Under the pieces are notes generated by a model. It made no database searches and was not told the origin of the DNA. It saw only the letters and a program-made list of their open reading frames with translations. Made by a program: the position numbers and the translations under genes. From positions 1-46,505 of IMG/VR virus record IMGVR_UViG_3300044838_000022: a stretch of 46,505 bases of DNA; one strand, given 5' to 3'. The DNA comes from a virus. Below are positions 2,508-9,026 of the stretch, piece after piece. How positions within the stretch are numbered: position 1 is the first letter of the stretch; every line of letters begins with the position of its first letter.

Positions 2508-2580
2508 GCGAAGTTCCTTTCCCTGGGAACAGTCCGAAAGAGAAAGCCTCTGGTGAAATATCCAGGGGCTTTCTTATTTA
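2508..2580 (+). ncRNA. Candidate phage small RNA (about 73 nt)
   Basis: A promoter is followed after only about 40 nt by a strong terminator: AGAAAGCCTCTGG (2541-2553) pairs with CCAGGGGCTTTCT (2562-2574), a 13-bp stem with one G-U pair, followed by a U-rich tail. The first part folds as GTTCC (2513-2517) with GGAAC (2526-2530). The loop and 3' arm contain CCTTTCCCTGG (2516-2526), the exact complement of the ribosome-binding region of the AAA+ gene that starts at 6644 on the minus strand. Related regions upstream of 6868 and 4063 match partly. An antisense role is inferred. The alternative, a leader for the 2624 gene, is less likely because that gene has its own promoter. Confidence 0.55.
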
Positions 2581-3776: not shown

Positions 3777-3806
3777 GGTAAGGAAAATTTCATTGAACCT
3801 TCCCCC
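3777..3806 (+). repeat. Left arm of perfect 30-bp inverted repeat around the 77-aa gene
   Basis: Perfect reverse complement of 4084-4113 over 30 of 30 bases. It begins GGTAAGGAAA, contains TTGAAC and ends CCCCC. It belongs to a repeat family also seen at 4092-4141 and 6671-6721. Confidence 0.95.
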
Positions 3807-3829
3807 GGATTTGAAATTGACGGTAGGGG

Positions 3830-4063
3830 TTAGGCTGCTACTCGACCGCTCTTAAGCAAGCGGTTAAGGGAAGCGTAGGGGTGAGCGTAGATTTCGAGCG
3901 CGTCGTCCAGGGTGTCGGCCGTAGCCGTGAACGAGGGAAGACCCCTCGCGCTCACGTCAACTACTAGGGCAGGCTCGCGCGGATCGTTCTTAGAGTCCGC
4001 GTTCCAGCAGAGTGCGACGGTAATACCATCCGAGTCGCGCGTCTTCAGAATTTTCGCATGCAT
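3830..4063 (-). CDS. 77-aa hypothetical protein in an inverted-repeat cassette
   Basis: 77 aa, begins MHAKILKTRDSDGITVALCW and ends with a helix-rich segment (TLDDALEIYAHPYASLNRLL). It looks like a small alpha/beta soluble protein; the family is not recognised. The ATG at 4063 follows CAGGGAAGGG, a good ribosome-binding site that could be partly hidden in a hairpin with the upstream CCTTCC. The gene is enclosed exactly by a perfect 30-bp inverted repeat (3777-3806 and 4084-4113) and followed by its own terminator. Confidence 0.7.
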   Translation of the reverse strand: MHAKILKTRDSDGITVALCWNADSKNDPREPALVVDVSARGLPSFTATADTLDDALEIYAHPYASLNRLLKSGRVAA

Positions 4064-4083
4064 GAAATATCCCTTCCCTGAGA

Positions 4084-4113
4084 GGGGGAAGGTTCAATGA
4101 AATTTTCCTTACC
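4084..4113 (-). repeat. Right arm of perfect 30-bp inverted repeat
   Basis: Reverse complement of 3777-3806, located between the end of the VWA gene and the start of the 77-aa gene, immediately upstream of the latter's ribosome-binding site. It overlaps the longer repeat at 4092-4141. Confidence 0.95.
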
Positions 4114-4141
4114 GTCTGGCGAAAACCGCAGCCGTTCCCTG
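4092..4141 (-). repeat. About 50-bp repeat, downstream arm around the AAA/VWA operon
   Basis: Read on the minus strand it starts CAGGGAACGGC, then CGGTTTTCGC, then AGACGGTAAGGAAA, then TTGAAC. The same order of blocks occurs on the plus strand at 6671-6721 with roughly 80% identity, so the two copies are inverted and enclose the VWA and AAA genes. Confidence 0.85.
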
Positions 4142-4152
4142 TACGGTTTTCC

Positions 4153-5790
4153 CTAGAACTTACGGGCCGAAATTGAAGCGATAGCCTCGTCTGCGCTAGG
4201 GATTTTTTCGATCTTGTGTTCTAGGATGACTTTCGCCATCCGCCTAATTTCGGCAGGCTCTAGGTTCAAGGTTGGCTGCCGCTTAGGAGGGTGCTCTTTT
4301 CCTGTTACTTTCCCGTCGGTAATCCAAATCTTGCGACGCTCTTTCCGTTTCGCCAACCATTCAATAGCCGGGCCGTCGATTAGATTCTCGCCGCCGGGCT
4401 TGCCCGTTTCCGGGTGATACTGAAAACGGCGAATTTCATCGTCCGAAACCCTCTTTTTGTTTTCGGCAATGATCGTTAGCCAACCGAAATTGTAAGGGTC
4501 GCTGCCCAAACCCTGATAGGTAGCGATGACGGACGCCGGAGCGATTTTCAGGATTGTGTCAATTTGACGCGCGCTAATGCGCATTGACCCTGAAACGTCG
4601 AAGAGGATTGCGATTCCCTCACGCCCCATTCCCCGCTCGCGGAAAATCCGACCGTCAGACGTTAGCCGATGAATTTGCGTCGGCACACTTCCAATATCGG
4701 AAGACCGCTTGCTAAGGGTCTTAGGACGAGGGAGCGGAAGAGTTAGTGACGGGTGGATAATTTCCATCCGCTGAAATGAGCCGCGAGTGTAGTAGCGGGA
4801 ATATTCGTAGCTGTTATCAATTCCAGCTTTTTTGATATCGGCCAACTCTTCCGGAGTGTAGTCGGATAGGGGGATCGGCTCTCCCTCAATCGGGCTAAAA
4901 GCATCCTCTCCCTCTAGTTCCGTTTCTCCGTCTTCCTCTTCGTCCGAATCATCGTCCGACGAATTTGAACTAGACGAATTATTCTCGTCTTCGTTTTCTT
5001 CGTCTTCCGATTCTTCGTCCGAACTAGACGAGGGATTATTTTTTAGGTCGAATCCCTCGTCGTCTTCTCCGTCTTCCTCTTCGTCCGAACCATCGTTCGA
5101 GGGATATTCGTCTTCATTCTCCGAATCGTCGTTAGCGTCGCCAGAATTGCTAGCGTCGCCGTCGTTTTCCTCGGAGTCTTCCGACTCTTCACCCTCGTCC
5201 GAATCGTCTTCCTCGTCTTCTGGCGGATTCTGGAATTTGCGGGTTAGGTCTTCAATCGCCCGGATTGTCTCTGACCACGGCGCTACCGTTTCGTTCTTCT
5301 CATATTCTGAAAAGCGCGAAATAATCTCGTCCGCGACTTCGACAATCCAAGGTTCTGTAACGACTTCCCTCGCAAGTGTTTCTTCCGCTCGACCGTGGTA
5401 TCCAATCAGCGCCCGCGCTTGCTCTAGCGGCGACTGAGAGGCTAGGGAACGTATCCCCCGTTCCTCGATCCCTTCAGGGGGAGCGGGATTGGTAGGAATG
5501 CCGACGGCTCGGAGTGCCGCATTTACGCGGCAATCCTCAATCGCTTGCATTGTCCTATTTTCCGCTCCCTCGACTTTGACTTTGACTTTCCCGCGTGGGG
5601 TAATTTGAACGTGCATATTTTCATGCGCACGAATTACAGCCGCGTGAGGGTCAGAGTCGAAGGGAACCACGAATTGCTTATTAGTGAAGTCAACGTAGGC
5701 TTTACGGCCAGACGCTTCCCTCACTTCAAAACCCTCCCGGCCGAGTAGCTCCGGGAGGGGCATTACCCTTTTTTGTGCGGAATCTTCCAC
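4153..5790 (-). CDS. VWA-domain protein with HExxH motif and acidic linker (partner of AAA+ ATPase)
   Basis: 545 aa. The N-terminal domain has HENMH (about residues 55-59), an HExxH metal-binding motif, followed by AIEDCRVNAAL, which fits the third-ligand region of DUF2201/CobT-like putative metallopeptidase domains. Residues about 195-310 are an extremely acidic Asp/Glu/Ser/Asn linker. The C-terminal part is a von Willebrand A domain with the MIDAS motif DVSGSM near residue 397 and a later WITDGK. Proteins of this type act with MoxR-type AAA+ ATPases (as in CobS/CobT, NorQ/NorD) to remodel or load metal into a target. GTG start 2 nt after the ATPase stop, with no clear ribosome-binding site, so translation is probably coupled. 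Target unknown; phage annotations often call such proteins CobT-like. Confidence 0.85.
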   Translation of the reverse strand: MEDSAQKRVMPLPELLGREGFEVREASGRKAYVDFTNKQFVVPFDSDPHAAVIRAHENMHVQITPRGKVKVKVEGAENRTMQAIEDCRVNAALRAVGIPTNPAPPEGIEERGIRSLASQSPLEQARALIGYHGRAEETLAREVVTEPWIVEVADEIISRFSEYEKNETVAPWSETIRAIEDLTRKFQNPPEDEEDDSDEGEESEDSEENDGDASNSGDANDDSENEDEYPSNDGSDEEEDGEDDEGFDLKNNPSSSSDEESEDEENEDENNSSSSNSSDDDSDEEEDGETELEGEDAFSPIEGEPIPLSDYTPEELADIKKAGIDNSYEYSRYYTRGSFQRMEIIHPSLTLPLPRPKTLSKRSSDIGSVPTQIHRLTSDGRIFRERGMGREGIAILFDVSGSMRISARQIDTILKIAPASVIATYQGLGSDPYNFGWLTIIAENKKRVSDDEIRRFQYHPETGKPGGENLIDGPAIEWLAKRKERRKIWITDGKVTGKEHPPKRQPTLNLEPAEIRRMAKVILEHKIEKIPSADEAIASISARKF

Positions 5791-5792
5791 GG

Positions 5793-6644
5793 TTACTTAG
5801 CCTCCCGAATCCTAAGAGTGTTCAGGATTTCATCGGCCCGAATTCCGAAAACGGCCTTAGCCGCAGTCTTAGAATCCGTGGCGACCGTCAGCGACGCAAA
5901 GGTCTTCCAAGCGCGTAGCCCGATCCCCCGGATGGGGTCAGTCGGATCGGCAGCATTCCGAATAATTTCCGCCAAATTGTTCGGCAGAGTTGCAATTGCA
6001 TCGGGATGCGGACGATTGACTTCGATAGCGACACTGAACCTGTCCCGAATTGCGTCGGGTAGGTCTTCCGGCTGTCCATTCATCGTCGCAATGACGTTAA
6101 ACGTTTCGCCGGGAGTAACAGTCTCGCCGGTTGGCAGAGTAATTCGCGAAATGCCCGGATCGTCCAGAATCGCATGGAAGAACGAAAGCGCGTCAGAAGA
6201 CGCTTTGTCGATTTCGTTAGCCACTAGACGATCCCCCGCGCGAAAAGCGCGCATAACCGGGCCGTCGTGCCAAACGAATTCGCCACCTTTAGGGATGAAA
6301 TGCCCGCGCAACTCTGCGCTAGGCGTCTCTTCCGTCAGGGTAATATTCCAAACGTTCTTTGGCGATCCGAGCAGATTTGCGGTTGTCGTCTTACCCGTTC
6401 CAGGGAGGCCAAAAAGAAGTAGCAGCCGAACGTGAGGCTGCACTTGCTCGACCAATTCCCATGAAGCATCCCGATAAATCGTAGGCGTCTTCTTTTTGAT
6501 CGGCGTAGGTTCTGCCGACACTGAAGGCGTAGGGGATGCTGTAACAACGGGAGAAACGGCCCGGCCGGTAACAGTAGGACACGTCCTAGCGTTATGTCCG
6601 GTCGCGTAGCAAATTCCACACTGATACGTTTTCCGTCTAAACAC
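5793..6644 (-). CDS. MoxR/CobS-type AAA+ ATPase with N-terminal zinc knuckle
   Basis: 283 aa. Residues 8-21 form a CCHC zinc knuckle (CGICYATGHNARTC). After a Pro/Thr-rich linker comes the AAA+ core: Walker A GLPGTGKT near residue 80, a Walker B-like RLVANEIDKAS, sensor-1 region IATMN, and arginine-finger region IRDRFS. It probably drives the VWA/HExxH protein encoded directly downstream. The zinc knuckle suggests nucleic acid or protein tethering, which is unusual for MoxR proteins. GTG start at 6644 after AGGGAAAGGA. An upstream TTCCCTG can pair with CAGGGAA and partly hide the ribosome-binding site, and the candidate small RNA at 2508 is complementary to it. Confidence 0.9.
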   Translation of the reverse strand: MFRRKTYQCGICYATGHNARTCPTVTGRAVSPVVTASPTPSVSAEPTPIKKKTPTIYRDASWELVEQVQPHVRLLLLFGLPGTGKTTTANLLGSPKNVWNITLTEETPSAELRGHFIPKGGEFVWHDGPVMRAFRAGDRLVANEIDKASSDALSFFHAILDDPGISRITLPTGETVTPGETFNVIATMNGQPEDLPDAIRDRFSVAIEVNRPHPDAIATLPNNLAEIIRNAADPTDPIRGIGLRAWKTFASLTVATDSKTAAKAVFGIRADEILNTLRIREAK

Positions 6645-6670
6645 TTGTAGTCCTTTCCCTGGATGAATTT

Positions 6671-6721
6671 CAGGGAACGGCCAACGGTTTTCGCTAGACG
6701 GTAAGGAAATTACACTTGAAC
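6671..6721 (+). repeat. About 50-bp repeat, upstream arm around the AAA/VWA operon
   Basis: Inverted relative to 4092-4141, with the same blocks CAGGGAACGGC, CGGTTTTCGC, AGACGGTAAGGAAA and TTGAAC. It overlaps the next inverted repeat (6712-6741), so adjacent units share repeat boundaries. Confidence 0.85.
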
Positions 6722-6741
6722 GCCTAGCTAAGTCTTTCCGC
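6712..6741 (+). repeat. Left arm of 30-bp inverted repeat around the 37-aa gene
   Basis: Reverse complement of 6891-6920 with 28 of 30 matches. It starts ACACTTGAACG and ends TCTTTCCGC. Confidence 0.9.
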
Positions 6742-6754
6742 TAGAGGTTAGAGC

Positions 6755-6868
6755 CTAGTGCCGAATGGACGGCCTATGAGTCTGGCAAGTAAGAGAACCG
6801 AGTCGAGCTAGCGGGGGTTCAATTATTCTCCCGCATTGGATACAAGCCAATTCGCGTTTGTGTTTCAT
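6755..6868 (-). CDS. 37-aa zinc-ribbon-like miniprotein
   Basis: ATG at 6868 with AGGGAAGGA 7 nt upstream; stop TAG at 6755-6757. The sequence starts MKHKRELACIQCGRI and contains CxxC near the start and CQTH near the end (C9, C12, C28, H31), a plausible single zinc site. The leader is nearly identical in layout to that of the AAA+ gene (CCAGGGAA, then GGAC, then ACAA, then start). The gene fits exactly between the arms of a 30-bp inverted repeat. It is below usual gene-calling size but well supported by ribosome-binding site, motif and context. Function unknown; a small regulator is possible. Confidence 0.55.
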   Translation of the reverse strand: MKHKRELACIQCGRIIEPPLARLGSLTCQTHRPSIRH

Positions 6869-6890
6869 TTTGTCGTCCTTCCCTGGAAAC

Positions 6891-6920
6891 GCGGAAAGAC
6901 TTAGATAGACGTTCAAGTGT
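6891..6920 (-). repeat. Right arm of 30-bp inverted repeat around the 37-aa gene
   Basis: Matches the reverse complement of 6712-6741 at 28 of 30 positions. It lies directly upstream of the ribosome-binding site of the 37-aa gene, the same geometry as 4084-4113 for the 77-aa gene. Confidence 0.9.
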
Positions 6921-7962
6921 TCTAGGTTTTCAAATATCGCACCGTAGCTAGCAAGCGTGTCCAGGCGGCCCCTATGAATCTATGGGGTCAGACGGATGGA
7001 CATTCCAGGGAAAGGCATTTTCGACGCGGAGTAAAAGAACGCGCGAATGATCCCTTCCGGGAACCTGCTAGCTCGGTTTTCAAATGTCTCGCCGGATTGA
7101 AGAACCTCCGGCCGAAACCAGATAGTAGCAAAAATCCCGGAATCGCAAGGGTGAATTTATCTCCCCCGCTCCCCCGCTCCCGCGCGAGGGACGAAAGCCA
7201 GGGATGAAAGCTTGATTCCGCGTAGCCGTGGAAAACGGTCGATAAAGCCGCTGTAAGCCTCCCTACGGCGCTGTAACCCCGAATCCGAGGGGATTACCCG
7301 TCCCGGCGGCAGGGGAGCTTAGAAACCGTCCTAAGTCCCTGAAACCCTGCGCTACTTTTCAAGCCTCTCCGCGATCCCTGAAAAAGACGCCTAATTTAAC
7401 GCTCCCTCGTGCGCGTATGCGGGCGCGCGAAGACGCCAATAAATAGCGCTATTCACGCCTAGCCTTAAACCCCCTAACGCTAGCCAATTTAACGCTACCC
7501 CATAAATGGGCATAAATGGACGATAAATACCCCGTTTTTGCGGTGTGGGAAGCACCTAAGTAAGTAGTAGGAAGGAAGTAGTGTTATTCGACCCCTTAGC
7601 TCTAGGCATTGTGCTTATATCCCGGCCGAGTCAATAACGTGCATATGAACTAATTACAATCACAATTATCCAATATGCCCATGTAAATATCTAATTACAC
7701 GTATTCGACCCCCAAATAAATACGAAATTACACGACTTATGAACTCAAGTGTAAAACCATGTATAAAATGACATCACCCCCAGTGGTACCGGAAAATATT
7801 TTGATAACACCACTGGCAGGTGGGATGGTGGGGGCCCCATAGTACAATTTATATGAAAATTTTCAGTTATAAGAATAAATTGATGTACTGAGTCATCCTA
7901 TTTGACATGCTCAGTAGCCGTATACGCTACACATCATGCAAAATACGGGCCTTCTATGCCGC
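6921..7962. other. Gene-poor intergenic control region
   Basis: No credible gene in about 1 kb. Visible elements: two near-identical copies of a 20-bp segment beginning GGTTTTCAAAT (near 6925 and 7074, same orientation); CCAGGGAAAGG near 7006 on the plus strand; AATTTAACGCT twice (about 7395 and 7487); three ATAAAT units within 30 bp (about 7502-7530); ATTCGACCCC twice (about 7586 and 7707); an inverted repeat at 7780-7816; and a second TTGACA at 7912-7917 without a clear -10. Composition shifts from GC-rich (7100-7450) to AT-rich (7600-7900). This fits a divergent control region or replication origin, but nothing proves it. Confidence 0.4.
7780..7816. repeat. Inverted repeat in the late-promoter upstream region
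   Basis: CCAGTGGT (7780-7787) and ACCACTGG (7809-7816) with a 21-bp AT-rich centre. CACC/GGTG-rich flanks continue on both sides and echo the CACCA sites at 3576 and 3623. Confidence 0.5.
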
Positions 7963-8100: not shown

Positions 8101-8424
8101 ATGAAGGAAATTAAATACCTCATGACAAGTGATGAACTTCACTTGGTCGGTGTAACATATCCTTGTAGAATTGAATATGAAATAATTCCGGCACCACGAG
8201 AAGCAGTTGGTAAAGACTTTAAATTTCTTGATGCTGTTGAATACAGAGATAGACAAATTAAAAACCTAACTGCCCAACGTGACGCTTTGATGAAAGAACT
8301 AGAATTAATTATGCCTGCTGAACAGCGAGCACAGCTTCTTGAAATTAGAGAGTGGGCCGCTGCCTTTGGTCTTTCAATTTCTGAAAATGCTATGAAAGAA
8401 CTGGTAAGGAGAATTACACAATGA
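8101..8424 (+). CDS. Hypothetical protein, first gene of the late operon
   Basis: 107 aa. The N-terminal half may be a beta-rich domain (DELHLVGVTYPCRIEYEII); the second half has a helical coiled-coil-like stretch (YRDRQIKNLTAQRDALMKEL) and a short C-terminal helix. Family not recognised. AGGAGG 5-6 nt before ATG. Its stop overlaps the start of the collagen-like gene (ATGA), implying coupling. Confidence 0.65.
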   Translation: MKEIKYLMTSDELHLVGVTYPCRIEYEIIPAPREAVGKDFKFLDAVEYRDRQIKNLTAQRDALMKELELIMPAEQRAQLLEIREWAAAFGLSISENAMKELVRRITQ

Positions 8425-9026
8425 GACACCGTTTTTTACCCGCAATGGCGATTTCTTTGCTGGCGTTGTTTTTTGTCCTGATCGGAACAGCTACAGCCAC
8501 TACTAAATTTATGGTTGGGGCAAGTCAGATCAAGGACTCTGCAATTCAACTCAGGCATTTGTCTTATCCAGTTCGGTCTAAGCTAGAAGCTAAGTCTGTA
8601 ATTTCTCCAATTACTGCTCCGGTTCCTGGTCAACAGGGAATTCCTGGTGTTCAAGGAGTAATTGGCCCTAAGGGAGAACAGGGCATTCAGGGAATTCCAG
8701 GAGAAGAGGGCCAACAGGGAATTACTGGTGACCCCGGCCCTAGTGGTACGAGTAATCTTCAAACATTCAGCGTCTCAAATGTCTATGGTGGCCCTACGAC
8801 TCTGACAGCTATGTGCCCGAGTGGCATAGCTGTAAGCGGTGGATATAAAATCACATCAATGCAATCAGTAGGCAGTCTCATAGTTGGACCATTTATTACT
8901 GAAAATCATAAGTATGCCGATTATGGATGGGTCGTTAGCGGGGGAAATACCCCTGGTTACTCTTTGCTTGAGGGATATTCAATTCCAACTAATGTAATTA
9001 CTGCCTATGTTTATTGTGGAGTGTAA
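8421..9026 (+). CDS. Exported collagen-like protein
   Basis: 201 aa. A signal peptide (basic MRHR, then a hydrophobic stretch, ending near ATAT at residues 24-27) is followed by a linker QIKDSAIQLRHLS, like that seen in actinobacterial collagen-like exoproteins. Residues about 73-112 are about 13 Gly-X-Y triplets with phage-typical GPKGEQGIQG and GDPGPSG. The C-terminal 90 residues form a compact beta-rich domain with two Cys. It could be a fibre or an exported host-surface protein; the signal peptide favours export in the infected cell. The host-like architecture suggests transfer from an actinobacterium. Confidence 0.8.
   Translation: MRHRFLPAMAISLLALFFVLIGTATATTKFMVGASQIKDSAIQLRHLSYPVRSKLEAKSVISPITAPVPGQQGIPGVQGVIGPKGEQGIQGIPGEEGQQGITGDPGPSGTSNLQTFSVSNVYGGPTTLTAMCPSGIAVSGGYKITSMQSVGSLIVGPFITENHKYADYGWVVSGGNTPGYSLLEGYSIPTNVITAYVYCGV

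Follow-up and report, generated by a model that had tools for sequence, protein, structure and literature searches.

In a leftward phage operon, we found that each translation unit has complementary arms of its own on either side and that a boxA-like motif precedes the first arm. The operon is part of a 46.5-kb virus record with 47% G+C (the whole of this stretch is referred to below as the window), in which it is located upstream of the terminase and structural genes, which point rightward. The layout appears to be a conserved architecture that likely acts at the RNA level. We consider it probable that the mRNA is organized like pre-rRNA, with a boxA and, behind it, a series of leader-trailer helices, each of them closing one gene block, that would be cut by the host RNase III. 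The features of the operon are given below from right to left.

7076..7084, minus strand: second boxA-like motif, TTTGAAAAC, farther upstream
6926..6934, minus strand: boxA-like motif, TTTGAAAAC, located 5 nt upstream of the first 5' arm
6891..6920, minus strand: 5' arm A of the p37 unit, 28/30 matches with A' and one G-U
6755..6868, minus strand: p37, a 37-aa Cys-containing small protein, with a CCAGGGAAGGA leader at 6876-6886
6712..6741, minus strand: 3' arm A' of the p37 unit, starting 13 nt past the stop codon
6671..6721 (core 6685-6709), minus strand: 5' arm B of the AAA+VWA unit
5793..6644, minus strand: AAA (MoxR/CobS-like) ATPase, 283 aa (AAA_5, 7e-21), with an N-terminal zinc-knuckle-like motif
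4153..5790, minus strand: VWA-type protein, 545 aa, with a long acidic Ser/Asp/Glu linker, starting 2 nt past the AAA stop
4092..4141, minus strand: 3' arm B' of the AAA+VWA unit, overlapping arm C at 4092-4113
4084..4113, minus strand: 5' arm C of the p77 unit, 30/30 matches with C'
3830..4063, minus strand: p77, a 77-aa protein with relatives in L026, G025 and probably G024
3777..3806, minus strand: 3' arm C' of the p77 unit, starting 23 nt past the stop codon
3740..3764, minus strand: intrinsic terminator, a 10-bp stem and T run a short way past the last 3' arm

Inverted pairs were scored without gaps (match +1, mismatch -1.5), and the window was scanned for pairs scoring at least 18 with arms up to 4.5 kb apart. 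Only three pairs were obtained: C/C' (3777-3806/4084-4113; 30/30 matches, score 30), A/A' (6712-6741/6891-6920; 28/30 matches and one G-U, score 25) and B/B', whose core (4092-4128/6685-6721) has 31/37 matches and a score of 22.5. By our own count, B/B' extends to 4092-4141/6671-6721 with about 42/51 matches and one gap. These are the three pairs described in the earlier note, which also correctly placed p37, AAA, VWA and p77 in the leftward direction. Five shuffles of the window that kept the local composition gave best pairs scoring 13-15.5, and shuffles of 437 kb of related sequences gave no pair scoring 16 or more. On the coding strand, the elements are arranged in the order boxA-like motif, 5 nt, A, p37, A' overlapping B, AAA+VWA, B' overlapping C, p77, C' and terminator. 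Folding of the p77 and p37 units brings their ends together (z -6.6 and -5.2, respectively). B' and C overlap by 22 nt (4092-4113), and therefore the full-length B:B' and C:C' helices compete and cannot both form at once; they could coexist if limited to 4114-4141 and 4084-4113, respectively.

A CCAGGGAA-type leader precedes p37, AAA and p77. It had been ascribed to all genes of the operon, but it is absent before VWA, the start of which directly follows the AAA stop. We regard it as a purine-rich ribosome-binding region of the ordinary kind, the upstream part of which is conserved; it has the form CCAGGGAARGG in the window and TCCGACAGAAAGG in related phages, and occurs before many starts. 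A conserved leader before start codons with inverted repeats nearby is also characteristic of the Cluster K SAS/ESAS and of the EF motifs of Microbacterium phages (PMC3203893, PMC7302621), and the arms might be start-associated elements like the SAS/ESAS of actinobacteriophages. However, the ESAS are local 17-bp inverted repeats with half-sites 4-13 bp apart and a consensus common across the genome (PMC3203893), whereas the paired arms described here are 128-2556 nt apart, surround entire genes and mostly vary between units. Identity with the Cluster K ESAS was ruled out on spacing and consensus, and a start-associated element of this kind is a scarcely credible explanation of the arms. Exact copies of the leader motif also occur in the window without an evident gene, CCAGGGAAAGG at 7005-7015 (plus strand) and CCAGGGAARGG at 2516-2526 (minus strand).

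Relatives were gathered by a terminase search (35, then 76 loci), and an AAA profile search added one more. All of them are uncultured metagenome contigs, and the evidence they provide is that of sequence. The curated set contains 28 helices of 20-42 bp in 10 related soil-metagenome phage records. Helices, usually with other arm sequences, are present in all 8 records that include enough of the AAA operon for the layout to be assessed; L029, in which the AAA gene is cut off, was left out of this judgement. There are five helices in G023 (L076; one of them nested), five in G024 (L079, L105), four in G025 (L100, L104; one nested), three in G029 (L109) and one in L070, while L084 has one strong helix and one weak helix, the latter being a 29th outside the curated 28. 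In L026, the pairs around AAA, DUF7192 and a p77-type gene have 24/24, 23/24 and 24/26 matches, respectively, and adjacent arms are 1-4 nt apart. G026 has no AAA gene and carries one helix enclosing two leftward ORFs. L014 (5240-7391) has a different operon, which encodes a DUF932 protein and contains two nested helices, with the genes on the terminase strand. Outside the chains, no other inverted pair scoring at least 17 was found in G023, G024 and G025 (66-74 kb), save one AT-rich local pair in G023, and G029 likewise has no other inverted pair of comparable score. A search of Rfam gave no match, and the enclosed products are ORFs rather than ribosomal RNA.

The same genes without the repeats, a case that the earlier note had raised against a linked array, were encountered only at a distance and not in the close family. 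The distant AAA+VWA metagenomic phage L005 (41% identity), which has the DxSGS motif of the VWA protein in common with the window, contains no such helices, and five cultured phages whose AAA homologue is distant (Bestia, Kudefre, Aegeus, phiM5 and vB_CECAV_04) have only weak pairs scoring at most 16.5. In Sinorhizobium phage phiM5, a weak pair round the AAA gene (L139:811-842, 2103-2134; score 14.5) consists of local hairpin repeats. A nucleotide search of cultured phages returned no match, p77 and VWA had no match in cultured phages, and searches for close relatives with these two proteins found none. The exact degenerate arm pattern had no match in IMG/VR because the arm sequences change between phages.

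The position of the arms follows the translation units. In most units the 5' arm ends about 10-40 nt before the first start codon; the exceptions (up to 92 nt, in G029) are units whose start call is doubtful or which contain a further, nested helix. The distance from the last stop to the 3' arm is 4-53 nt, except for 129 nt in L070, where part of the gene was probably missed by the automatic call. Coupled genes are found under one helix (AAA+VWA in the window, p82+p56 in L026, p59+p78 in G025), and adjacent arms in the serial chains usually abut or slightly overlap. Self-contained and abutting units, together with small genes that vary between phages, could be taken for gene cassettes that are mobile or invertible and end in inverted repeats. 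However, all genes of a serial chain are on one strand, with the leader of every unit at the same end, and the AAA-DUF7192 order is kept. Moreover, the arms differ between units of one phage and do not form a single recombination site; the three arm pairs of L026 are unrelated to one another. The clearest arm similarities between phages mostly link homologous units, and the best of them are in the same orientation. The invertible array suggested in the earlier note is not supported, given the constant strand and leader position and the unrelated arm pairs of L026, and its modular cassette system is weakened by arms that are not shared terminal repeats, so that cassettes of either kind are very improbable.

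The kinds of base pair in the helices point to the molecule in which the arms pair. Together, the 28 helices contain 778 Watson-Crick (93.2%), 29 G-U (3.5%), 12 A-C (1.4%) and 16 other pairs. G-U and A-C are expected to be equally frequent without strand-specific selection; their ratio of 29:12 on the coding RNA strand (two-sided p=0.012, a modest value for 41 sites taken as independent) therefore points to pairing in RNA. The arms of homologous units are themselves homologous, and their comparison gave 10 pairs changed on both sides, 8 changed on one side, 79 unchanged and 7 broken. Gene conversion could also keep the arms matched, yet it would give no G-U excess. A function of the arms in DNA, as paired sites for a DNA-looping phage protein or as hairpins in replicating DNA, would make equal use of inverted pairs and would suit the short motifs, such as TTTCATTGARC, that are common to some arms. 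It is at odds with the G-U excess on the coding RNA strand and with the placement of arms by translation unit; in addition, most arms of one phage have no common site, and the shared motifs mostly occur between homologous units. We thus regard a DNA-level function as improbable and pairing of the arms in RNA as well supported by the sequences compared. Among the earlier proposals, a common regulatory RNA design is the one in line with these data, given the conserved layout, the arms that hug the units, the complementarity kept despite different arms, the G-U excess and the boxA-like motif before the first arm.

Of the 10 records, six (the window, L084, G029, L070, G024 and G026) have the motif TTTGA(A/C)AA 4-8 nt upstream of an arm, and the arms behind it have pairing scores of at least 24.5. 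Among the remaining boxA-like matches, a single one has a score above 16.5 (20.5, in G025), and it also leads into a chain arm. No motif is located beside the first detected arm in L026 (which has one 130 nt upstream), G023, G025 and L014. The boxA of G026, GTTCTTTGACAACTG, is identical to the rRNA leader boxA of genome G042 over 15 nt. The leaders of 16S genes carry GGTTCTTTGACAACTGAATAG in G042 and G051 and GGCTCCTTGAAAACTGAACAG in G055, and on this basis we take the motif to be, at least in some bacteria, a boxA of the rrn type. A related terminase contig sits in bin G042, an Acidobacteria-labelled MAG, which is a weak pointer to the host. We also considered TTTGAAAAC as a -35 box and rejected it, as no -10 box was seen by eye at a fixed distance. 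A second boxA-like copy with no strong helix behind it occurs 130-300 nt upstream of the chain in the window, L026, G029, L084 and L070. In G024, a perfect 20-bp helix with a 128-nt loop and no called gene lies directly upstream of the boxA (L119:3136-3303; G024 54136-54303).

A 16S leader-trailer helix longer than 17 bp is critical in Escherichia coli, and boxA is located just upstream of it; the model for pre-rRNA proposes that factors bound to boxA keep the 5' strand close to the polymerase until the 3' strand has been transcribed, after which processing of the helix follows (PMC10250234). Similarly, in the phage operons a long product lies between complementary flanks that exceed 17 bp, successive products are enclosed in one transcript, and in six of the 10 records a boxA-like element comes shortly before an arm. 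Unlike pre-rRNA, the phage RNA encloses mRNA coding units and no rRNA, often three or more in a row, its arms abut, its boxA-like motif, in those six records, is 4-8 nt from the arm, and its processing is a prediction. As the product is mRNA, the phage chains are not a member of the rRNA system.

By analogy, the boxA-like element would be transcribed first and bring in NusB/NusE, the antitermination machinery of the host. Around each translation unit a separate helix would close, formed by a 5' arm upstream of the ribosome-binding site and a 3' arm past the stop, and the units would follow arm to arm, giving in the window the chain boxA-[p37]-[AAA+VWA]-[p77]-terminator. The mRNA would thereby become a string of closed loops, one for each gene block, downstream of the boxA-like signal. 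Each helix may close as its 3' arm leaves RNA polymerase; the host RNase III may then cut the helices and free separate mRNAs, the base-paired ends of which would resist decay and which could be translated independently. A Pfam search found no phage RNase III or NusB domain, hence host enzymes are assumed. This pre-rRNA-like mechanism is plausible. The sequences support the arms, their conserved layout, the strand-biased pairing and the position of the boxA-like motif; from these we infer a working boxA, helices that form in the cell, cutting by RNase III and an effect on stability. The nested layout of L014, the lack of a motif beside the first arm in four records and the B'/C overlap count against it.

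The same RNA helices might instead act without RNase III cutting or a working boxA, by sealing and protecting the ends (mRNA circularization) or by isolating the translation of neighbours. The pairing evidence fits this possibility equally well, as do the coupled genes under one helix; moreover, E. coli requires its leader-trailer helix even when RNase III is missing (PMC10250234), and cutting may therefore not be what matters. This possibility does not account, however, for the fixed spacing of the boxA-like motif in six records. Perfect RNA helices of 24-36 bp, such as those predicted for the arms, are expected substrates of RNase III, and we consider sealing or isolation on its own a serious but rather unlikely alternative to the pre-rRNA-like mechanism.

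RNase III cuts the early mRNA of phage T7 at intergenic hairpins. In both cases a polycistronic phage RNA would be divided into gene-sized mRNAs, with cutting being predicted for the operons described here; the T7 hairpins are local, whereas here long-range helices surround each gene. Pairing of the 5' UTR with the 3' UTR within one bacterial mRNA is known for icaR of Staphylococcus aureus (PMC3868564). The icaR mRNA carries a single gene, whereas the phage arms are chained over an operon and leave the ribosome-binding region outside the helix. Pairing of a 3' UTR to the Shine-Dalgarno sequence, as in icaR, was not seen in most units, where the arms end before the leader.

No phage mRNAs with serial 5'-3' pairing were found in the open-access papers that were searched. 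It is possible, although somewhat short of probable, that these transcripts represent an undescribed class of mRNA, in which a phage operon is built of gene-specific helices behind an rrn-type boxA and borrows the host machinery for rRNA transcription and maturation. If this is right, the rRNA-style precursor architecture extends beyond stable RNAs, and a phage would employ boxA together with leader-trailer helices to divide its protein-coding genes among separate mRNAs with protected ends. Such operons would also provide a natural, repeatable test of boxA complexes promoting long-range RNA annealing. The layout would then be a computable signature that can be searched for in other phages and bacteria.

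Elsewhere in the window, a rightward gene block at the left end includes an HNH endonuclease (26-490) and a HIRAN-domain protein (734-1108). A 272-aa protein with repeated RGRPKGS-type AT-hook motifs is encoded at 1165-1983, and a 201-aa protein with a collagen-like Gly-X-Y stretch at 8421-9026.
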